Below are positions 1 to 24,367 of a stretch of DNA of 64,000 nucleotides, piece by piece. The notes beneath the pieces were generated by a model. The model worked only from the letters and a program-made list of their open reading frames with translations, was not told the DNA's origin and did not search any database. This stretch comes from Caldifarciminota bacterium. Its GTDB lineage: Bacteria; Hydrothermota; Tepidihabitantia; Tepidihabitantales; Tepidihabitantaceae. Position 1 is the first letter of the stretch. Each line of letters begins with the position of its first letter. Made by a program: the position numbers and the translations under genes. Location of the stretch: NCBI GenBank assembly GCA_026418295.1, contig JAOABP010000008.1:1-64000 (forward strand). The letters run 5' to 3'.

Positions 1-3000
1 CGCCGGTCTTGTAGCCGCGTGCCGCATACAGCTTGCCACCATCCGGATCCTTGACCACAAATCCGCCATCCTTGACCTCACCGAGAATCGTCGCCATCTC
101 CTTCCAGCCCGGCTCATACGGCACTCTGACGATGAAGCTGAACTGGACCGTGTCATTCGCATGGTTGTTATCCTGCGCATAGACGATGTAGGCAACCGCC
201 AGATAGGAGCCGGTGTTGGCTGCGTTCCACTGGGTGCCAAACGCATGCTCAACCTCAGTACCCGGATCCAGCGTCAGCTGCTCGGTCTGGTCATAAACCG
301 CGCTCATCGCTGAGTCATAAATCACATAGTGGACATCAACATTTGCCGCCTGATCACCGTAGTTCGCATACTTCGCGGTCGGCGTGATGACTGCGCCCCG
401 GTTCACATTCCCGCTCGGCACTGTGATTGCGGTCGTCGCCACATCATACTTGTGGACATGGACCGAATCGGTCAGCAGGTCGTTCGCCGGGATCATATCG
501 CCGGTCAGCCGGGTTGTGCACCGGACCTCAAAGTCACCCAGCTGGTTTGCGGTCCAGTTCGGGAACCCGGTAATCAACCGCTCCTCATCCGGCGTCAGAC
601 CGACCACCAGCCGCTGCTGGTTGTAGCTCGAGCCGATCTGGAGCTGGACATAGAAGGAGACGGTCGAAGTGCCGTTGTTCCGGACCCGGACCTGCGGTGC
701 AATCACCGCACCGGAGTCCACATTGCCCACCGGCCGGACGATAGCGGTCGGCTGAACATCAACGAGATAGACATCAACTGAACCGGTCACGGTGTTGTTG
801 CCCGGCACCTCATCACCGCTGAGCAGGGTGGTGGCGCTGGTCGCATAGGTGCCCTTCGCCATCGGTGTCCACTGATCAAAGCTGACGATTGCGGACTCAC
901 CCGGTGCCAGACCGGTCACCGACTGCGTATCCGCATAAACCGAGCCGATCCGGAACTCCACCGGGAAGCTCTGGGTGCCGGAACCGAAGTTCCAGACCTT
1001 TGCCTGCGGTGTAATCGCCACGCCGTAAGGAATGGAGCCGGTCGGTGACAGAATCTCGGTTGCTGCGACATCAACCGGCTTACGACAGCCGATACCCGCA
1101 ACATTGTCAATCAGCCAGCCGTCATAGGTCACCGAGCCGTCCGTGCCGAACCGCCAGTGCACCTTGAATGATGTGCCGCTTGAGACCGGAATCTTGAACC
1201 GTGCAGCCTCCCAGCCCCAGGAGCCGGAATAGCCGTATTCGCCCAAGCCGTAGACCGTGCCGTAGTAGGCTCTTGTTCCATCCGGATAGAGCAGGGTCCA
1301 GGTCTGTCCGCCATCGGTTGAATACTTGAAGTTACCGCCGTCATAATAGGTCTCGCAATACATCCAGTGCATGAACATCACCACCGGTGTATCCGCAGTT
1401 GCGACCAGGTTGAAGGAAAGCAGGGTGTCATTGGCACTGTTCTGGTAATAACCGGACAGCACATCGCCCCAGCATTTCGGGCTGGAAGGCGGTGGTGTCC
1501 GGGAACCGCCAGACGGCTGACCCCACTGCCAGCCACCGGTACCCCGGAAGTTGCCGTTCGACGCATCAAACCGCTCCACAAAGTCCGCAACCATCGTTGT
1601 CTGGGTAATCCGGTCGTTGCTCGTGTTGCCATCACCCGACAGCTGAACCGAGCACCGGACCGCATACGAACCGCTGGCTGACGGCGTCCAGGTGGTAAAT
1701 CCGGTAACATTGTAGGTGTCACCCGGTGCCAGCGTCTGGTTCACGGTCACGGTTGAAGTATAGGAACCGCCGATATCCAGCTTCACGCTGAAGCTGGAGA
1801 CCGAGGCGGTGCCCACATTCTTCACCCAGACCGACGGGCTGACATTCTCACCCACCTCATGCAGACCGCTGGGCAGGGCGATTCTCCGCATCGCCAGGTC
1901 ATAGGGCGAAGGTGGCAGACCCTTCCGGTAGTAAATCTCATAGTTCCCCGGATGCGTGCCAACCCAGACCACATGGACCGATGAGGAGTCTGCGCCCGAA
2001 CCGCCATTATTGACCGAGGAGTAGTACTGATAATAGCTCGGGACATAGCAGACACGCTCATATGTGCCCCAGGTTCCGGAAACACTCCGCTCATTATACA
2101 TTATACCATAGTAGGTCTCACTGCTGGACGCATAGCCGGTCCAGACCACATGCGCCCTGCCATCCTTGGTGTAATTCAGGCAGGTTCCGTAAGTACTGGC
2201 ATAGACCAGCGTGTCATTGGCAATTTCATAGGCATTAGGCCAGGTGTCAGAAATTCCTGTGCCCATCCGCTCCTTGAACGCCACCGCATACCAGTAGTTG
2301 GGCATCGTATAGGTCCAGTAGGCAACCGCAGCCCGGTTGGTTCTCGGGTTGACTGCAACCGAAGGATAGTAGCAGTAGTAAGTATGCTTGGATGCATTCT
2401 GGACCGCACTCCAGGTGCTGCCGAACCGTGCCCGATACCATACCTGATAATAGGAGGTGTTGCCCGGCATATAGCCCATGAAGACGACATGGACACTGTT
2501 GTCCCTGCCACCCGCAACATCCGGTGCCATGTGATAATAACTGGTGGACTGGGAGTCAATCCAGACCCTCGGCTGCCATCCGCCCGAGGTCTTCTCCACA
2601 TAACCAATCGCATATCCCACGCTTGAATAGTAGTTGTAATAGACCACATGGACATTGCCGTTCGGCGTGCAGGCGATTGCAGGATAGTATTTATACCACA
2701 GCAGTGTATCTGAGGTAATTCTTGTGCTTGTCAACTGCCATCCGCCATTGCCCGATGAAGTCGGGGTGCACATCTTGTAGGCGATGTAATAACCGGTCGG
2801 AGCAGATGAAACTTTGTAATGATACCAGACCACATGGACATTACCCGATGAGTCAACCGCAAGTGACGGATAGTAGGAATAACCGGAGGATGCCAGATCC
2901 GCTGAAATGCAGGTGTCTGAAGTCCAGCCCGAACCCGGATAATACCGCTTGTAATAAACCTGCGGTGAGTAGGTACCTGGTGTCTGATACGACATCCAGA

Positions 3001-3319
3001 CCACATGCACCCTGCCTGACGGGTCAACCGCCACACCCTCCCGGCCGAAATACGAGACATAGTCCGTGACCGAGTTGGTGGTCAGCCGGACCGTATCCTG
3101 CCACTGGGCATCAGTCTCTGCCCAGGGCGGCGTCTGGGAGTTCTGCCACTCCACATACGCCTGGTCGGGTGGCTGCGGTGTTTTACCCGTATGGGTCACA
3201 GGTTGCACTGCCTCTTTTACTGGCAGGCCCGTCTCCGGGTCAAATTTCGGTGGCTGTGGCGCAAGCGCCAGTGCCACTGCTGCCAGCAGGAGCAGTGTCA
3301 GTGCTACCGCTTTACGCAT
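1..3319 (-). CDS. Secreted modular surface protein, 3' part beyond left edge
   Basis: The reading frame is open from the ATG at 3319 (preceded by GGAGGCAAGG) to the left edge, so about 1106 residues are visible and the C-terminus is missing. A signal peptide (about residues 1-21, rich in Leu/Ala) is followed by seven or so propeller-like repeats with the core VHVVW or VHVVY (about residues 70-450), as in BNR/Asp-box sialidase-like proteins. Then come a CARDB-type beta-sandwich (about 476-566), a MAM/immune-inhibitor-like sandwich (about 573-740), and three more CARDB-type units (about 745-1063). The last visible segment begins GWKEMATI and is nearly identical in plan to the Kelch-like module of the next gene (4429-8082). 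By analogy the missing end probably carries more Kelch-like repeats and a sorting domain. It is probably an extracellular or surface protein; ligand and enzymatic role are unknown. Confidence 0.85.
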   Translation of the reverse strand, partial: MRKAVALTLLLLAAVALALAPQPPKFDPETGLPVKEAVQPVTHTGKTPQPPDQAYVEWQNSQTPPWAETDAQWQDTVRLTTNSVTDYVSYFGREGVAVDPSGRVHVVWMSYQTPGTYSPQVYYKRYYPGSGWTSDTCISADLASSGYSYYPSLAVDSSGNVHVVWYHYKVSSAPTGYYIAYKMCTPTSSGNGGWQLTSTRITSDTLLWYKYYPAIACTPNGNVHVVYYNYYSSVGYAIGYVEKTSGGWQPRVWIDSQSTSYYHMAPDVAGGRDNSVHVVFMGYMPGNTSYYQVWYRARFGSTWSAVQNASKHTYYCYYPSVAVNPRTNRAAVAYWTYTMPNYWYAVAFKERMGTGISDTWPNAYEIANDTLVYASTYGTCLNYTKDGRAHVVWTGYASSSETYYGIMYNERSVSGTWGTYERVCYVPSYYQYYSSVNNGGSGADSSSVHVVWVGTHPGNYEIYYRKGLPPSPYDLAMRRIALPSGLHEVGENVSPSVWVKNVGTASVSSFSVKLDIGGSYTSTVTVNQTLAPGDTYNVTGFTTWTPSASGSYAVRCSVQLSGDGNTSNDRITQTTMVADFVERFDASNGNFRGTGGWQWGQPSGGSRTPPPSSPKCWGDVLSGYYQNSANDTLLSFNLVATADTPVVMFMHWMYCETYYDGGNFKYSTDGGQTWTLLYPDGTRAYYGTVYGLGEYGYSGSWGWEAARFKIPVSSGTSFKVHWRFGTDGSVTYDGWLIDNVAGIGCRKPVDVAATEILSPTGSIPYGVAITPQAKVWNFGSGTQSFPVEFRIGSVYADTQSVTGLAPGESAIVSFDQWTPMAKGTYATSATTLLSGDEVPGNNTVTGSVDVYLVDVQPTAIVRPVGNVDSGAVIAPQVRVRNNGTSTVSFYVQLQIGSSYNQQRLVVGLTPDEERLITGFPNWTANQLGDFEVRCTTRLTGDMIPANDLLTDSVHVHKYDVATTAITVPSGNVNRGAVITPTAKYANYGDQAANVDVHYVIYDSAMSAVYDQTEQLTLDPGTEVEHAFGTQWNAANTGSYLAVAYIVYAQDNNHANDTVQFSFIVRVPYEPGWKEMATILGEVKDGGFVVKDPDGGKLYAARGYKTG

Positions 3320-3445
3320 ACCTTGCCTCCTTTTTGTTTTACCATAATGTATGGCGCCCGTTTTCAGACAGAAAGCGCCTTACTTTCGGACGCCTTTACC
3401 CTGTACCTTTTTTATTCGGATGTCACCCACTCAGGTGGCACTAAA

Positions 3446-3474
3446 ATTATACACCCCTGCCTGCCCGCTGTCAA
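3446..3474 (-). promoter_or_regulatory. Promoter of the left-edge secreted gene
   Basis: Read on the minus strand this is TTGACA (3474-3469), a 17-bp spacer and TATAAT (3451-3446). It lies about 125 nt upstream of the ATG at 3319, so the mRNA would carry a leader of roughly 120 nt with a strong Shine-Dalgarno near the start. Confidence 0.75.
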
Positions 3475-3498
3475 GCAGAAAATTGACCCCGGAAAGTG

Positions 3499-3539
3499 AT
3501 TCCTCGACTCCGCCCCTGCGGGGCGTCGCTCGGAATGAC
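3499..3539. repeat. Hairpin-type dispersed repeat (palindromic form)
   Basis: The 41-bp unit starts ATTCC and ends GGAATGAC. It contains a CGCCCC-TGC-GGGGCG hairpin, so it is an imperfect palindrome. It resembles the short REP-like intergenic units common in FCB-group genomes. It lies in the 353-bp gap between the left-edge gene and the gene at 3700. Confidence 0.6.
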
Positions 3540-3578
3540 CAGAAACGAGGACCGGAGCCGCCGGCACACCTTTTTTCG

Positions 3579-3620
3579 GTCATTTCGACCGGAGCCCGAA
3601 GGGCGGAGCGGAGAAATCCC
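3579..3620 (+). repeat. Dispersed repeat, GTCATTTCGAC...GGAGAAATCCC, copy 1
   Basis: This 42-bp unit shares its outer ends GTCATTTCGAC and GAGAAATCCC with the copy at 4339-4376, in the same orientation. The middle differs in length and sequence (GAGCCCGAAGGGC here). The two copies bracket the gene at 3700-4266. Confidence 0.7.
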
Positions 3621-3644
3621 TTATTCTATCCAACCGCATTTTCC

Positions 3645-3673
3645 TTGACACCTCGCTTCACCGGCAATAAAAT
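3645..3673 (+). promoter_or_regulatory. Promoter of the small secreted gene at 3700
   Basis: TTGACA (3645-3650), a 17-bp spacer and TAAAAT (3668-3673). The predicted start of transcription is about 20 nt before the TTG start codon, leaving room for the AAGGAGG Shine-Dalgarno. Confidence 0.75.
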
Positions 3674-3699
3674 TGATAATTAACAATAAGGAGGTCACT

Positions 3700-4266
3700 T
3701 TGCGCAGAACCGTTTTAGCCCTTTGCCTCATTCTCGGGCTGGCAGGCATTGCCCCTGCCCAGATGAATATCACCGGCTATGTCACCACCGAAGCGATGCC
3801 GGTGGAAATTGATTCGGTCTATTTTGAATTCGGCTCCAACCGCATCTGGTTCACCACCCCGGGCTGGAACGCCAACCCGGGCGAGACCACATCCTTTGTC
3901 TTCCCCGAGTTCGCCGGCTGGCCCGCAATTATCAAAATGTCATTTAACACCGGCGGTATGCCCGGCTATGACAGCCTCTACCGTCCCCAGTCCGACTCCT
4001 GGTATCAGCTGCGCCCGCCCAATGAGCAGATTCGTTTCATGTTCCACGGCGAGGTGGGAATTCAGGAACAGAAACCGGTACCGGTTTACATCGGCATGAA
4101 CGGTATTCTCGGTTATCAGCAACTGCTGAACTTTGTCACCAGCGGTGAGCTGGAACTGGTGAACCATCTGGGACAGCGGGTGGAACCGGTCAATCTCGCA
4201 CCGGGCGTTTACTTCTACCGCTCTGCAGGCACCCGGGAATATCACCGCTTCCTGCTCGTCCGGTAA
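3700..4266 (+). CDS. Small secreted protein with partial C-terminal sorting domain
   Basis: Translation is placed at the TTG at 3700 because AAGGAGG ends six bases before it and the product then begins with a normal signal peptide (RRTVLALCLILGLAG, cleavage near PAQ). The upstream in-frame TTG at 3673 would add nine residues and sits inside the -10 box. The 188-residue product is a paralogue of the protein at 10513-11175. Both have a T/STPGW motif, a TWYEL/SWYQL-type motif and similar spacing. The end, containing LAPGVYFYRS and finishing LLVR, resembles the last strands of a Por/T9SS-type sorting domain but lacks the usual PNP entry motif. Function unknown; export is likely. A terminator follows directly. 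Confidence 0.75.
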   Translation: MRRTVLALCLILGLAGIAPAQMNITGYVTTEAMPVEIDSVYFEFGSNRIWFTTPGWNANPGETTSFVFPEFAGWPAIIKMSFNTGGMPGYDSLYRPQSDSWYQLRPPNEQIRFMFHGEVGIQEQKPVPVYIGMNGILGYQQLLNFVTSGELELVNHLGQRVEPVNLAPGVYFYRSAGTREYHRFLLVR

Positions 4267-4284
4267 ACCGCGGTTTTATGGATT

Positions 4285-4312
4285 AAAGGGCGGTCATCGA
4301 CCGCCCTTTTTT
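4285..4312 (+). terminator. Rho-independent terminator after the gene at 3700
   Basis: GGGCGGT-CATCG-ACCGCCC stem-loop followed by TTTTTT, 18 nt after the stop codon. Confidence 0.9.
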
Positions 4313-4338
4313 ATTATTTTGCCCCGGCGACCCCCTCA

Positions 4339-4376
4339 GTCATTTCGACTGAAGCGAAGCGGAATGGAGAAATCCC
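4339..4376 (+). repeat. Dispersed repeat, GTCATTTCGAC...GGAGAAATCCC, copy 2
   Basis: This 38-bp copy is in direct orientation relative to 3579-3620, with the same ends and a shorter centre (TGAAGCGAAGCGGAAT). It lies between the two opposing terminators of the flanking convergent genes. Confidence 0.7.
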
Positions 4377-4379
4377 TCA

Positions 4380-4411
4380 AAAATAAAGCGGGGGGCGATA
4401 TCGCCCCCCGC
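4380..4411 (-). terminator. Terminator of the Kelch/CARDB gene
   Basis: A perfect palindrome GCGGGGGGCGAT-ATCGCCCCCCGC at 4388-4411. Read on the minus strand it is followed by TTTATTTTTG. It ends 17 bp after the stop of the gene at 4429-8082. Confidence 0.85.
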
Positions 4412-4428
4412 AATCCGTTCGCAGTCGC

Positions 4429-19552: not shown

Positions 19553-19581
19553 ACTTTATCCCCGAATTCGGCTTTTGTCAA
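19553..19581 (-). promoter_or_regulatory. Leaderless promoter of the beta-barrel gene
   Basis: Minus strand: TTGACA (19581-19576), 17-bp spacer, TAAAGT (19558-19553), then six bases and the GTG at 19546. The -35 box overlaps the nadA stop codon, so this gene can be expressed apart from the nadA operon. Confidence 0.65.
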
Positions 19582-20495
19582 GAAATCTCCAGCATTCGCT
19601 TCAGCGCCCGCTGTGCCCGTTCTGCCACGATCGCCGGTATCTCCACCTCGGGAACCACCCCCTGCAGTGCCGCCTTCACATCATCAAGGCTGGTTAGTTT
19701 CATATTCCGGCAGATGGCGGTCCGGCGCAGCGGATAGCAGTGGCAATCCGGGTACTCGCGCCGGATCCGGTTGCACATCCCGGCTTCGGTACCGAGTACC
19801 AGCTCCTTCACCTCACGGGCAATCCGGACCATCCCGCTCGTCGATGCCACCCGGTCGGCGACCTGAATCACCTCCAGCGGACATTCCGGATGGACCACCA
19901 CCAGCGCACCGGGATGTTCAATGCGCGCCCGCCTGACATCCTCAACCGTAAACTGGGCATGGACATAGCAGAACCCCTCCCAGGGAATGATCTCCCTTCC
20001 TGTCTCCTGTTCCACCCAGCGTGCCAGATTCCGGTCCGGCACGAAGAGAATTTTTGGGGACCTGGGCAGAGACTGAACGACCCGCACCGCATTGGCTGAG
20101 GTACAGCAGATATCCGCCTCTGCCTTGACTTCTGCCGGCGTATTCACATAGGCTACCACCAGTACATCTCCCAGCTCCTGCCGGCGCCGGCGCAGCGCTT
20201 CAGCAGTAATCATGTTCGCCATCTGGCATCCTGCCTTGGGATCGGCAAGTACCACTGGTCGCCCGGGATTGACCAGTTTAGCGTTCTCCGCCATGAACCG
20301 CACCCCGCAGAAGACAATCAGCGCACTCTCCACCCGGGCAGCCGCCTGCGCCAGCTCGAGCGAATCACCGATAAAATCTGCCACCTCATAGATCTCGGGC
20401 AGCTGATAATTGTGCGCCAGAATCACCGCCCGCTGCTTCTGTTTCAGCTGTCTGATTTCCGCAATCAGCCGTTCCTGCTCACCACTTTCCGCCAC
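19578..20495 (-). CDS. nadA: Quinolinate synthase
   Basis: Makes quinolinate from iminoaspartate and dihydroxyacetone phosphate in NAD synthesis, using a 4Fe-4S cluster. The 305-residue length fits. Conserved parts: AHNYQLPEIYEVADFIGDS (about 24), VFCGVRFMAENAK with a cluster Cys (about 76-90), DPKAGCQMA, HPECPLEV (about 202) and RTAICRNMK near the end. Start is GTG at 20495 after GGAGGTAAAGA, three bases past the DUF488 stop. nadB and nadC are not in the window. Confidence 0.95.
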   Translation of the reverse strand: MAESGEQERLIAEIRQLKQKQRAVILAHNYQLPEIYEVADFIGDSLELAQAAARVESALIVFCGVRFMAENAKLVNPGRPVVLADPKAGCQMANMITAEALRRRRQELGDVLVVAYVNTPAEVKAEADICCTSANAVRVVQSLPRSPKILFVPDRNLARWVEQETGREIIPWEGFCYVHAQFTVEDVRRARIEHPGALVVVHPECPLEVIQVADRVASTSGMVRIAREVKELVLGTEAGMCNRIRREYPDCHCYPLRRTAICRNMKLTSLDDVKAALQGVVPEVEIPAIVAERAQRALKRMLEIS

Positions 20496-20498
20496 TCT

Positions 20499-20987
20499 TT
20501 ACCTCCGGGGACGCCGTGTTACCGCCGGCGTCCAGAAACGGTCCTCCTCCAGTATATGCACCACCTCAATCCCCTGTCGCGCCAGTTCCTCCGCGATAAT
20601 CAGCCGGTGGCACCGCTCGGGCAGATAACAGGAGCAGACAATACAGCACACCCGGACCGGCACCTTGCCGGCAATAATCTTCAGCCCCCGGCGCACCTGC
20701 TCCCGGTTCAGCCACTCCTTCAGACTGTCCCGGACTGCTCCCACCCCTTCCGGTGGCGCCAGCTCGTTTCCCAGATACAGGTAATTGACCCTGTTGGCTG
20801 AACACAGCGCCTCCATCCCCGCCCGGCTGTAGTCGGTCTTTTCCGCACCGAAGAAACTTGGTGGATTAACCGGTGCCGCAGGCAGATTGGCACGAATGTC
20901 AAACAGCACCTGAATGCCGAACTTGGTCAGCAGCCGGCTGAACTCAAACCCGGGCCGGCGGCCGATTCCCAGTGTATAAAGCCTCAT
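20499..20987 (-). CDS. DUF488 family protein
   Basis: A 162-residue cytoplasmic protein of the DUF488 family. Signatures: LYTLGIGRRPGFEFSRLL at the start, VLFDIRANLPA (about 28), and the C-terminal cysteine/histidine motif CSCYLPERCHRLIIAEEL. Biochemical role is not established; the Cys-His cluster suggests metal or thiol chemistry. Its ATG overlaps the scpA stop (ATGA). Confidence 0.88.
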   Translation of the reverse strand: MRLYTLGIGRRPGFEFSRLLTKFGIQVLFDIRANLPAAPVNPPSFFGAEKTDYSRAGMEALCSANRVNYLYLGNELAPPEGVGAVRDSLKEWLNREQVRRGLKIIAGKVPVRVCCIVCSCYLPERCHRLIIAEELARQGIEVVHILEEDRFWTPAVTRRPRR

Positions 20988-21706
20988 TCCGCCTCCGACA
21001 CCGGGGTCAGATTTTCCGGCTCCCGCCGCATCAGCCGGATCGGACCGAACTCCTCCTGCTGTTCCACCCGCACCTCTCCCAGCCGTACCAGTTCCAGCAG
21101 TGCCAGAAATGTCACAACAATTTCTCCCAGTGTTGCCCCGCTTACCGCCTCCTCAAACTCAACCACCGCCCGCTCCTCTAAAAGCTGCCTCAACCCTTCT
21201 ATCTTGTCTTCGATTCTGATTTCCCGCGGGGTAATCGTCAGCCGCGGTTCGGGTTTGAGCCGTGCCAGCAGCCGGCTGAAGGCACGGGTCAGTACTGCAA
21301 TGTCTTCCCCTTCAGCCCGGGCCACAGGCGGTGACTCCCCCCGGCGCGGAAAGCGCTGCCGCTGTTCCGCCTCTCTCCGAGCAAGGAGCCGTGCCGCACT
21401 CTGAAACTGCCGGTAGGCATCCAGGATCTGTTCGAGGGAAACCTGTGGTGTTGACAGATCCTCTTCTTCGGTCCGGGGCAGCAGTGCCCGCACTTTGAGC
21501 CGCACCAGCACCGCCGCCATTGTCAGAAAATCACCCGCCACCTCAAGATTCAGCGCTGTGCTGTTGCGGAGCATTGCCAGATAGTCGTCGGTCAGCCGGG
21601 CAATGGGAATGTCAAGGATATCCAGCTCATTCTTCCGCACCAGATAGAGCAGCAGCTCCACCGGGCCTTCAAAAATATCCAGCCGGACCTGTGCTACTTC
21701 ACTCAT
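20984..21706 (-). CDS. scpA: Segregation and condensation protein A
   Basis: A 240-residue kleisin subunit that bridges SMC heads in bacterial condensin. Family signatures: an N-terminal LDIFEGPVELLLYLVRKN, IPIARLTDDYLAM (about 39), FLTMAAVLVRLKVRALLP (about 61), and a C-terminal winged-helix part with GEIVVTFLALLELVRLGEV. scpB and smc are not visible. Placed between a DUF362 protein (4-bp gap) and DUF488 (overlap). Confidence 0.93.
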   Translation of the reverse strand: MSEVAQVRLDIFEGPVELLLYLVRKNELDILDIPIARLTDDYLAMLRNSTALNLEVAGDFLTMAAVLVRLKVRALLPRTEEEDLSTPQVSLEQILDAYRQFQSAARLLARREAEQRQRFPRRGESPPVARAEGEDIAVLTRAFSRLLARLKPEPRLTITPREIRIEDKIEGLRQLLEERAVVEFEEAVSGATLGEIVVTFLALLELVRLGEVRVEQQEEFGPIRLMRREPENLTPVSEAE

Positions 21707-21709
21707 AAC

Positions 21710-22741
21710 CTAAAGACTCACCAGCTCATACTCCCTTTTTCCCAGCCCCAGCTCCACCGCCCGTTCCAGCAGCACCTGATAATTGAGGTGGGGATACAGC
21801 CGTCTGATTTCAACCCCAACCCGGTCCAGCGCCGCCTGATCACAGGCAACCGGGTCCAGCGAGGCAAATACTCCAACATCAGGTATTACCGGCTCCTCGG
21901 TCTGGGGATAACAGTCGCAGTTCGGCGTAACCTTCAGCACAAAGTTGAAGTGAATCGCTACCCGGCCGGCAAGGATCGCCTGGCAGTAGTCTGCCATTTT
22001 CTCCTGCACCGACTCGGACGCCTCATCCCAGTTCAGCTTGATCGCCCCCGAGGGACACACAGCCACACACCCGCCGCAGCCGGTACAGGACCGGCCGATC
22101 TTCGCCACATACTCGACAAAACCGATCGCATCATGCGGACAGTAGTCAACACAGGTACCGCAACTCACACACTTGTTCTTGTCAACATAGGGTTTGGAAC
22201 TGGAATGCATCGCCAGCTTGCCCGCCTTGGCTGCCAGACCCATCGCCAGATTCTTCAGCGTTCCACCATAGCCGACAACAAAATGGCCCTTGAAATGAGC
22301 AAGGTTGATCAGATACCGGTAATAGCGCAGCCCCGAAGCCAGATACGCCTCGGCCACCCGTCCGTTCGGCACCGGCACCGCATAAAACTTCTCACCATAT
22401 TCACCGTCAAGAATTTCAACCGGTGCCAGCACCCGCTCCGGAACAAATCCATGCTCATGCGCCACCTTGATATGCTCACTTGCCCGCTGCCGCCTGCCCC
22501 GGTAAAGCGAAGTGGTCTCAATCAGCGCCGGCTGAAGATTGAAGTAAGTAGTGGTAATCACTACCCGGCGCACATACTCCGGGTCAATATGATTGGTGTT
22601 CCCCGCTTCACCGAAATGGACTTTGATGCCCACCCGCTTTCTCGGCTTCACCATCTCAAAAAACCCGGAATTCTTCAGTACCACCCCCAGTCCGTCCAGC
22701 ACCCGCTCCTTCGGTAAAAACCACACCCTCGCTCTGCTCAT
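21710..22741 (-). CDS. DUF362 protein with two 4Fe-4S clusters
   Basis: A 343-residue protein. The N-terminal DUF362 part (about 1-175) has KVHFGEAGNTNHIDP and LINLAHFKGHFVVGYGGTLKNLAMG. A ferredoxin module follows with two full motifs, CVSCGTCVDYCP and CTGCGGCVAVCP (about 180-230), then VTPNCDCYP and a final DUF362 stretch. The ATG at 22741 overlaps the stop of the radical SAM gene (ATGA), so it is preferred over an upstream in-frame ATG. Likely an electron-transfer or redox protein; partner unknown, possibly the co-encoded radical SAM enzyme. Confidence 0.88.
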   Translation of the reverse strand: MSRARVWFLPKERVLDGLGVVLKNSGFFEMVKPRKRVGIKVHFGEAGNTNHIDPEYVRRVVITTTYFNLQPALIETTSLYRGRRQRASEHIKVAHEHGFVPERVLAPVEILDGEYGEKFYAVPVPNGRVAEAYLASGLRYYRYLINLAHFKGHFVVGYGGTLKNLAMGLAAKAGKLAMHSSSKPYVDKNKCVSCGTCVDYCPHDAIGFVEYVAKIGRSCTGCGGCVAVCPSGAIKLNWDEASESVQEKMADYCQAILAGRVAIHFNFVLKVTPNCDCYPQTEEPVIPDVGVFASLDPVACDQAALDRVGVEIRRLYPHLNYQVLLERAVELGLGKREYELVSL

Positions 22742-23844
22742 CGCCACACACCACTGATTCTGCAACCGCAGAAACGGCATCTGCCATTCGCGATATTGTT
22801 TTCCGTCACCGTAAACCCCTGACGCCCGATCAGTTTCTTACCGCAGTCCGGACAGTAGGTGTTCTCATCGGGATGGCCCGGCACATTGCCGACATACACA
22901 TATTTGAGTCCGGTACGCCGTGCCATCCGCACCGCCCGTTCCAGCGTTGCCACCGGTGTTGCCGGACTGTTGAGCAGTTTATAATCGGGGTGAAACCGGG
23001 TAAAATGTACCGGAATTGTGTCCCCCAGACTGTCCCGGATCCACTCACACATCCGCCGGATGGTTGTGCTGTCATCGTTGAATCCGGGGACCACCAGATT
23101 CACCAGCTCCAGATGCACTCCGCTTTGGGCAACCGTCCGGCATGCCGACAGCACCGGGGCAAGCGTTGAACCACACACCCGCTCATAAAACTCCGGTGTA
23201 AACCCCTTGAGGTCAATCTTGATTGCGTCCACCACCCGGCACAGCGACTCCAGCGGCTGCGGATTCACATATCCACCGGAGACAACTGCAGTTCTGATAC
23301 CCCTTGACCGCGCCTGCCGGGCAATATCGTACATATACTCATAAAACACCACCGGCTCCGTATAGGTAAAACAGATAACCGGCAGTTTCAGCCGTTCTGC
23401 CAGTGCCACCACCTCCTCCGGACTCATCGTTTCTGCCGGTACATCCTCCGGTTTTGCCTGAGAGATCTCCCAGTTCTGACAGTACCGGCAGCGCTGATTA
23501 CACCCGACCGTTGCCAGCGTCAGCCTTTCCCTGCCGGGCAGAAAATGGAAAAAAGGCGCCTTTTCAATCGGCTCGCGGTTAATGGAACAGGGCCGGCCGT
23601 AGACCAGAGAATAGAGCACCCCGTTTCTGTTCTCCCGGACCCGGCAGAACCCCCTTTTCCCGGAAGGAATCACGCAGCGCCGCGGGCACAGCTCACACTG
23701 GACAACGTGGTTATCCAGCTTCCGGTACCACATCGCCTCCCTGCCCCCGCTGTGCTGCCCGATCTTTGAGTCCACTGCCGGTATTGTCCCGACCAGAATC
23801 AGCAGAAAAACCGCCAGCCCGGCTTTCAAACAACCTCTCACCAT
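22738..23844 (-). CDS. AmmeMemoRadiSam-type radical SAM enzyme with membrane leader
   Basis: A 368-residue radical SAM protein of the AmrS/pyruvate-formate-lyase-activase-like family. The SAM cluster motif is GCNQRCRYCQNW (about 113). A Cys-rich N-terminal CELCPRRCVIPSGKRGFCRV and a C-terminal zinc-ribbon-like tail (YCPDCGKKLIG, CRFCGCRISG) match the family. The first 30 residues form a hydrophobic segment GLAVFLLILVGTIP, unusual for this family and suggesting membrane attachment or export. Start ATG at 23844 is nine bases after an alternative TTG at 23853 that overlaps the upstream stop. Memo and AMMECR1 partners are not adjacent. Confidence 0.88.
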   Translation of the reverse strand: MVRGCLKAGLAVFLLILVGTIPAVDSKIGQHSGGREAMWYRKLDNHVVQCELCPRRCVIPSGKRGFCRVRENRNGVLYSLVYGRPCSINREPIEKAPFFHFLPGRERLTLATVGCNQRCRYCQNWEISQAKPEDVPAETMSPEEVVALAERLKLPVICFTYTEPVVFYEYMYDIARQARSRGIRTAVVSGGYVNPQPLESLCRVVDAIKIDLKGFTPEFYERVCGSTLAPVLSACRTVAQSGVHLELVNLVVPGFNDDSTTIRRMCEWIRDSLGDTIPVHFTRFHPDYKLLNSPATPVATLERAVRMARRTGLKYVYVGNVPGHPDENTYCPDCGKKLIGRQGFTVTENNIANGRCRFCGCRISGVWR

Positions 23845-23849
23845 GAGAC

Positions 23850-24290
23850 TCAATTAACCGCCAGTCCGATTACCAGCCCGGTAATTGCACCCAGTCCGAA
23901 AAGCCCGAAGACCGAACCGCCGAAAAGCCATTTCGCCCGCCGGGCACTCTGCTCCATGGTCCGGGCGCTGATCTCCACTTTAGTCTCCATTGCCGGCAGA
24001 ATCTCCACCCGGGCTGAGGCAGCGTCAATCCGCGCCAGCGTCCACAGTGCGGCAAGCCGTCGTCCCGGTGCTGCGGTTCGCACCGTCTGATAAAGCCGCT
24101 CCAGACTGTCATTGGAAACCACGGTCACCCAGTAATTTCCCGGCTCAAGCTGATACCGCATCAGCGGTGTTATTCCGACACTCTCCCCTTCAACATACAC
24201 CGGCATCCCGGCAGGCTGGGAATTCACCGACAGAAACCCGGGACTTGCCAGCCCGGAAACCAATCCTGCAAAAATTAACAGGCTCATCAT
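23850..24290 (-). CDS. PEGA-domain envelope protein
   Basis: A 146-residue product from the ATG at 24290. A hydrophobic leader (MMSLLIFAGLVSGLA) is followed by a PEGA domain (about 20-70) with FLSVNSQPAGMPVYV and GITPLMRYQLEPGNYWVTV, and a C-terminal transmembrane helix (GLFGLGAITGLVIGLAV). PEGA domains are small beta-sandwiches of surface proteins. Longer in-frame starts up to 24347 exist but the promoter geometry favours 24290 (leaderless). First gene of an overlapping six-gene group ending with nadA. Confidence 0.75.
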   Translation of the reverse strand: MMSLLIFAGLVSGLASPGFLSVNSQPAGMPVYVEGESVGITPLMRYQLEPGNYWVTVVSNDSLERLYQTVRTAAPGRRLAALWTLARIDAASARVEILPAMETKVEISARTMEQSARRAKWLFGGSVFGLFGLGAITGLVIGLAVN

Positions 24291-24297
24291 AATAAAA

Positions 24298-24325
24298 AGA
24301 CTATCCAAAAAAATCCTGCTGTCAA
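24298..24325 (-). promoter_or_regulatory. Leaderless promoter of the PEGA-amrS-...-nadA group
   Basis: Minus strand: TTGACA (24325-24320), 16-bp spacer, TAGTCT (24303-24298), then seven bases to the ATG at 24290. The -10 is imperfect. Confidence 0.5.
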
Positions 24326-24367
24326 AACGGTAAACGGCATCCCGCATCCGTCAGTGCTAAAATTTGA

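Follow-up and report, generated by a model that had tools for sequence, protein, structure and literature searches.

The window analysed here, a stretch of 64,000 nucleotides from the Caldifarciminota bacterium assembly GCA_026418295.1 (contig JAOABP010000008.1), holds a run of six genes, all on the minus strand and read from 24347 to 19578, which encode in this order a PEGA-domain protein, the AmmeMemoRadiSam radical S-adenosylmethionine (SAM) enzyme AmrS, a DUF362-ferredoxin protein (DUF362fd), ScpA, a DUF488-like protein and NadA. Judged by its start, AmrS is one of a widespread set of radical-SAM enzymes with a predicted export signal at the N-terminus, and it is this signal, together with that of the putative partner of AmrS, a Memo-AMMECR1 fusion protein, that is considered below. 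The features of the locus are the following.

22738..23853, minus strand: AmrS, AmmeMemoRadiSam radical SAM enzyme of the signal-bearing type (TIGR04337, 368.4 bits; cut-off 220)
23734..23853, minus strand: N-terminal extension of AmrS, at most 40 residues, whose hydrophobic stretch is free of charges; Sec-type signal predicted (hydropathy script)
23644..23697, minus strand: N-terminal cysteine motif of the AmrS core, C13, C16, C20 and C30, numbered from the Met at 23733
23479..23502, minus strand: radical-SAM CxxxCxxC motif, C78, C82 and C85 of the AmrS core (alignment)
21710..22741, minus strand: DUF362 protein into which a 2x[4Fe-4S] ferredoxin domain is inserted (PF04015, 138 bits; Fer4)
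22055..22174, minus strand: ferredoxin insert, whose eight cysteines, from C191 to C229, do not vary among the 14 sequences aligned
23850..24347, minus strand: PEGA-domain protein with a hydrophobic N-terminus (PF08308, 39.6 bits); start at 24347 or 24290
20984..21706, minus strand: ScpA, condensin subunit (PF02616, 89 bits)
20499..20987, minus strand: DUF488-like protein (PF04343, a weak match of 24.1 bits against a cut-off of 22.2)
19578..20495, minus strand: NadA, quinolinate synthase (family profiles, 370 and 386 bits)

Profiles, alignment and a structural model agree in assigning AmrS to the radical-SAM enzymes, the CxxxCxxC motif and the radical-SAM barrel both being present. In an alignment of 208 AmrS cores (141 signal-labelled and 67 signal-less), the seven cysteines C13, C16, C20, C30, C78, C82 and C85 and the lysine K176 are invariant (208/208), while E126 and D174 are conserved in 204/208 and 207/208 rows, respectively; from the alignment with PflA, we take E126, D174 and K176 to be equivalent to SAM- or ion-contacting positions of that enzyme. 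The predicted structure of the core (mean predicted local distance difference test score 92.4) has as its closest match PflA with AdoMet (3cb8, E 3.3e-15). AmrS was found in 143 of the 147 genomes of the phylum, in 137 of them above the family cut-off, and the genome to which the window belongs has two copies, that of the window on contig C15 and a second, signal-less one on C12 (C, G, L and f numbers are our handles for contigs, genomes, loci and families).

Several variations on the AmrS gene were seen. The second copy (C12, L007:6268-8285) overlaps a gene for ApbE, a flavin transferase, and the ApbE-AmrS pair also occurs in the short-AmrS loci read from relatives in f1, f2 and f5. A signal-less AmrS of family f21 (L127:1486-2778) is fused to a Mut7-C ubiquitin/ThiS-like domain, and L126 and L128 look similar. 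A second signal-bearing subtype, whose first cysteine motif is CxxCFRxC, is present in L065 and L068 (f3), L193, L195-L198 and L205; in L065 and L068 the gene that follows has a spermine-synthase-like domain.

Within the phylum, AmrS proteins start mostly in one of two ways, being either short and devoid of a hydrophobic stretch or longer, with a signal of the Sec type or of the twin-arginine translocation (Tat) type; a few signal-less proteins have long extensions of a different kind, such as the ubiquitin-like domain of L127. The extension in the window reaches a mean hydropathy of 3.23 across 10 residues, and relatives carry similar ones. Signals were called by a hydropathy rule and a motif, with a few hand edits: a Tat motif rule was added, Memo 'Tat' calls were changed to Sec, the AmrS of G003 was set to none, those of L065 and L044 to Sec and the Memo of L173 to SecC, and truncated signal-less starts were set aside. 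One protein, L240, has a strict Tat motif at its start and was counted as Tat in the phylum tally, but as 'none' in the co-variation, the alignment and the tree described below. All 25 Tat rows in the phylum show the strict RRx[FL] motif, and, of the 148 signal-labelled rows, 142 have a cleavage-like site, as defined by a loose pattern, behind the stretch, a set in which some genes, including that of the window, are present twice owing to overlapping loci.

The extension might be an artefact of start-codon choice, untranslated and preceding an ordinary cytoplasmic enzyme. An in-frame ATG at 23733 with a purine-rich stretch immediately upstream speaks for this, as does the fact that 10 of the 40 residues in the extension differ from those in G107, the cores being 95% identical. 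Such an artefact is nevertheless highly improbable given the frame control, in which the region upstream of the core was hydrophobic in the coding frame at 26 of the order's 28 signal-labelled loci, which hold 27 genes from 26 genomes, and at only 2-6 of the 28 in the other five frames. The same control on the 148 signal-labelled rows gave 122 in frame against 11 to 30 in the other frames, a comparison that is partly circular because the labels made use of hydropathy. Strict Tat motifs in 48 rows from other organisms, the match of signal type to TatC content and the co-variation with Memo, all detailed below, also argue against an artefact.

The only Memo match in the genome of the window (G000) is a fused Memo-AMMECR1 protein of 508 residues, encoded on the minus strand of contig C11 (approximately 2893-4419), which has a predicted export or lipoprotein-like signal of its own. 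Memo-AMMECR1 fusions mostly begin with a hydrophobic stretch, in many cases with a cysteine directly after it; unfused Memo proteins begin at or close to the core. Rows of at least 400 residues make up 66 of the 67 signal-bearing Memo rows of the phylum and 9 of the 47 signal-less ones. The residues H44, H76, H126, D180 and H183 are invariant in 148 Memo rows (100 signal-bearing and 48 signal-less) and C225 is present in 146 of them; these six are the Memo site residues. Across the phylum, 141 of the 147 genomes have a Memo match and 134 an AMMECR1 match. The fusion gene on C11 stands in a set (L008:2893-7302) that also encodes a BadFG ATPase and a pair of DUF2229/HGD-D proteins. Of the 17 Memo loci fetched from f1, 14 contain BadFG-like genes, and HgdB- or BadFG-like genes were seen in the AmrS loci L014, L017, L074 and L255 too.

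The signals of the two proteins co-vary. The genomes for start reading were chosen by hand, AmrS starts being read in 103 of the 147, Memo starts in 100 and both in 95; among these 95, both AmrS and Memo bear a signal in 57 and neither does in 34, with AmrS alone in one (G019, whose second Memo is not among the starts read) and Memo alone in three (G010, G014 and G118). The Fisher p value is 3.8e-21, while raw script calls without hand edits give 52, 34, two and seven genomes, respectively (p 1.6e-16), and the majority calls of families give 17, 14, none and one (p 3.2e-8); these p values ignore descent, genomes within a family not being independent. Four genomes (G017, G018, G020 and G050) contain signal-bearing as well as signal-less copies of both proteins. 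The type of signal read on AmrS in turn fits the TatC content of the cell. TatC was detected in 81 of the 147 genomes (80 above the cut-off), among them all 22 with a Tat-signal AmrS; of 41 genomes with Sec-type AmrS only, 33 are without TatC and eight have a match, one of which (G139) lies below the family cut-off. The genome of the window, with its Sec-type AmrS, gave no TatC profile match.

Signal-bearing AmrS proteins are also found in other phyla, as seen in named loci that represent the best 80 of 587 confirmed loci and not a survey. Their 81 AmrS rows comprise 55 with Tat signals, 15 with Sec, four with Sec and a cysteine, five with none and two that are truncated; the strict Tat motif is present in 48 of the 55 Tat rows and also in L240, one of the five called 'none'. 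By the names in the database records, the signal-labelled rows come from 21 named phyla of bacteria and one of archaea, and almost all of them come from metagenome-assembled genomes. The Tat-labelled AmrS proteins of L277 and L281 lie on contigs recorded as Aenigmatarchaeota and Altiarchaeota, which could be mis-binned. Where AmrS and Memo form a same-strand pair in these loci, the script calls signals on both in 32 of 36 cases, the other four consisting of two with a truncated AmrS, one with a Memo called signal-less (L259) and L240.

On a tree of 211 AmrS cores (FastTree), the signal label requires three changes, of which the wrong call for L240 accounts for one, while shuffled labels require 57 on average; when Sec, Tat and none are treated as separate states, 15 changes are needed. 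The tree, which is unrooted, fits a single signal-bearing clade that contains one signal-less group, formed by G010 together with four named loci, of which three are from Omnitrophota. The history of the Memo signal appears to be less simple than that of AmrS, since the label changes five times across the 148 rows of the Memo tree and all five changes are forced by well supported branches.

Taken together, the signals, their co-variation, the intact radical-SAM and Memo site residues and the near-single-clade descent suggest that AmrS probably serves as the radical-SAM component in an extracytoplasmic form of the AmmeMemoRadiSam system and has Memo-AMMECR1 as its partner. Export of AmrS and its partnership with Memo-AMMECR1 are the most secure part of this explanation and may be considered quite likely. 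Both proteins would be exported and meet in the cell envelope, where AmrS might act in the manner of PflA, its closest structural relative, by abstracting hydrogen from a protein partner; a substrate held by Memo-AMMECR1 is an alternative target. PflA-like action on the partner is proposed only tentatively. Since we know of no supply of SAM outside the cytoplasm, few turnovers or a recycled cofactor would be most likely. The broader picture of an old and widely spread radical-SAM clade, exported with a Memo-AMMECR1 lipoprotein and carrying out SAM-dependent radical chemistry in the envelope with SAM that either leaves the cell in bound form or is recycled, is plausible, if somewhat short of an even chance.

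A number of observations weigh against an exported AmrS with Memo-AMMECR1 as its partner, in addition to the non-independence of genomes and the partial circularity noted with the counts above. The location of both proteins is predicted from sequence, the signals being called by our own hydropathy rule, with its motif and hand edits, in place of a trained predictor. Among the 67 signal-less rows, the frame control found a hydrophobic stretch in three when read in the coding frame and in 4 to 24 when read in the others. Seven of the 55 Tat calls in the named loci lack the strict motif, and the AmrS start is unsure in 12 of the 81 named rows because more than 90 residues of open frame precede the core. 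In the genome of the window, the genes for AmrS and Memo-AMMECR1 are unlinked (C15 and C12 versus C11). The best counter-example to matched export is G010 (L023/L075), in which a signal-less AmrS lies close to a Memo-AMMECR1 with a clear lipoprotein-like signal (two of the four AmrS matches of this genome were read), and the four named loci that group with it likewise have a signal-less AmrS. The chemistry adds its own difficulties: Sec translocates unfolded proteins, for which reason the cluster of an AmrS with a Sec signal would have to form outside, and we know of no machinery for cluster formation outside the cell, nor of an extracytoplasmic pool of SAM or reductant.

A rival view is that the hydrophobic N-terminus is merely an inner-membrane anchor and that AmrS faces the cytoplasm, the compartment that contains SAM and low-potential electrons. 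In its favour, the Sec-type signals of this lineage suit an iron-sulfur enzyme poorly, and in some extensions (L015 and L029) positive charges flank the stretch on both sides. An anchor is, however, an unlikely explanation in view of the relatives with Tat signals, of the cleavage-like sites, loosely defined as they are, and of a partner that is itself signal-bearing and often lipoprotein-like.

Electrons might reach the outer side of the membrane through products of contig C14 (L331), which holds the one FMN_bind match of the genome; the neighbours of this gene read, from their translations and not by profile match, as what we take to be RnfD, RnfE and RnfA. Rnf or the BadFG/DUF2229 set are leads as an electron supply, the BadFG-like genes not being tied to AmrS by any evidence. 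To our knowledge, radical-SAM enzymes are regarded as residents of the cytoplasm because that compartment supplies both SAM and low-potential reductant. The signals on AmrS and on its putative partner raise the prospect that a chemistry so far assigned to the inside of the cell could also occur outside. A clade in which the export signals are conserved, the catalytic residues intact and the partner signal-bearing would mean either that radical-SAM chemistry takes place outside the cytoplasm or that radical-SAM proteins do something else there, and it would narrow the possible functions of Memo and AMMECR1 to substrates reachable from the envelope. In the titles, abstract beginnings and passages of open-licence papers that were covered, no exported AmrS or Memo was found; a work whose subject is Memo-Ammecr1 systems (Burroughs et al., 2019), cited in PMC7159879, falls outside this coverage and may mention signals.

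The gene directly downstream of amrS encodes DUF362fd, on which no signal sequence was seen. At an E-value of 1e-20 or lower, the window protein matches 89 of the 147 genomes. In all 27 matching genomes of the order, AmrS adjoins DUF362fd on the same strand, overlapping it or at most 55 base pairs apart, the large overlaps stemming from the longest-start rule; the order comprises 28 genomes, of which G118 has no DUF362fd match and a few have a partial AmrS. In the other 62 genomes with DUF362fd, some of which have no listed AmrS coordinate, none has AmrS beside it among the matches listed. One named locus, L273 (Elusimicrobiota), has DUF362fd and, after approximately 0.4 kb, a signal-bearing AmrS and Memo-AMMECR1 in a single stretch. 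Seven genomes of f6 and f7 have DUF362fd and, as far as read, only signal-less AmrS, while four genomes of f17 and G050 have a signal-bearing AmrS and no DUF362fd match at the same threshold. The two proteins are thus not strictly coupled, which weakens the case for a dedicated pairing.

A reading of the window from its sequence only had proposed that AmrS and DUF362-ferredoxin, whose genes share a four-base-pair ATGA overlap, form a redox pair with an unknown product in place of Memo and AMMECR1. The overlap is present, the pairing recurs throughout the order and no Memo or AMMECR1 gene is linked to the AmrS of the window, to which the single stretch in L273 may be added in favour of a dedicated pair. 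Replacement, on the other hand, is rejected by the fused Memo-AMMECR1 gene of the same genome, itself signal-bearing, and by the prevalence of both families in the phylum, and the uncoupled occurrence of the two proteins adds to this; a redox pair replacing Memo/AMMECR1 is therefore very improbable. Linkage of Memo and AMMECR1 elsewhere to another amrS copy, together with loss of the pair among relatives, had been named as grounds for abandoning the idea: Memo and AMMECR1 do occur elsewhere in the genome, yet the second AmrS adjoins ApbE, not Memo, and the pair is conserved within the order.

As part of the exported-AmrS reading and compatible with it, DUF362fd would presumably stay inside as a co-expressed, order-specific iron-sulfur protein that may give electrons to AmrS or aid the loading of its cluster before export, alongside Memo-AMMECR1 and not as its replacement. 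The close spacing or overlap of the two genes throughout the order, the eight invariant ferredoxin cysteines and the apparent absence of a signal would suit such a donor. The 62 genomes elsewhere in the phylum, with no adjoining AmrS among the matches listed, speak against it, and adjacency alone is weak evidence because the housekeeping genes for ScpA and NadA share the run; a donor role is thus possible but rather doubtful. Nickel-pincer chemistry was also considered for DUF362fd on account of its LarA-like fold and is disfavoured, such a cofactor being unlikely since LarC (PF01969) has no match in the genome, which is 96.7% complete.

The coordinates and family matches bear out the description of the run as six genes in one direction with overlaps or gaps of 3-5 base pairs, the DUF488 match being weak. 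Its proposed limit at 24290 coincides with an in-frame ATG of the PEGA gene, the frame of which extends to a possible start at 24347. For AmrS, the candidate start codons are a TTG at 23853, giving an overlap of 4 base pairs with the PEGA gene, and an ATG at 23844, giving a gap of 5. Gaps of 3 base pairs separate DUF362 from ScpA and DUF488 from NadA, and ScpA and DUF488 overlap by 4. Relatives in f1 have the complete or almost complete order PEGA-AmrS-DUF362fd-ScpA-DUF488-NadA, those in f2 have PEGA-AmrS-DUF362fd-ScpA, so that PEGA is upstream of AmrS in both families, and those in f3 and f5 have AmrS-DUF362fd-ScpA, with NadA; in a few of these loci, a gene is masked by open-reading-frame picking or the run stops where the contig does. 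The recurrence of the whole run or of large parts of it in relatives within the taxonomic order indicates that the arrangement is not due to chance. Some relatives have an extra small gene between ScpA and DUF488, to which nothing corresponds at this point of the run in the window; it is DUF498 in both relatives scanned (L042:8491-8868 and L061:8642-8986).

Among known systems, Tat-exported iron-sulfur enzymes such as hydrogenases resemble the relatives of the window AmrS in combining a Tat motif and a hydrophobic stretch on an iron-sulfur protein; they differ in that AmrS is a radical-SAM enzyme and that the window copy is of the Sec type, in a genome without a TatC match. The predicted structure of DUF362fd (mean score 85.5, lower in the ferredoxin insert) matches the fold of LarA-like enzymes (9q3k, E 4.9e-7), nickel-pincer racemases of the LarA superfamily, and, according to passages of PMC11770544, DUF362 and DUF2088 both belong to Pfam clan CL0471. 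Unlike in that superfamily, a ferredoxin domain is inserted in DUF362fd, and LarC is without a match in its genome. PflA (3cb8/3c8f) is the closest solved structure to AmrS by both sequence and model fold, the CxxxCxxC and DLK stretches of the two aligning; AmrS differs from it in its extra N- and C-terminal cysteine motifs, its predicted export signal and the presence of TYTEP at the position of SGGEA in PflA. A further parallel is the AmmeMemoRadiSam system itself. Here, AmrS carries a predicted export signal, Memo and AMMECR1 are joined in one signal-bearing protein and the fusion gene is on another contig than AmrS, adjacency of the three genes being usual but in our view not strictly defining for the system and common in the named loci. 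All three components (TIGR04337, Memo PF01875 and AMMECR1 PF01871) are nonetheless present in the genome of the window, with the radical-SAM and Memo site residues conserved.

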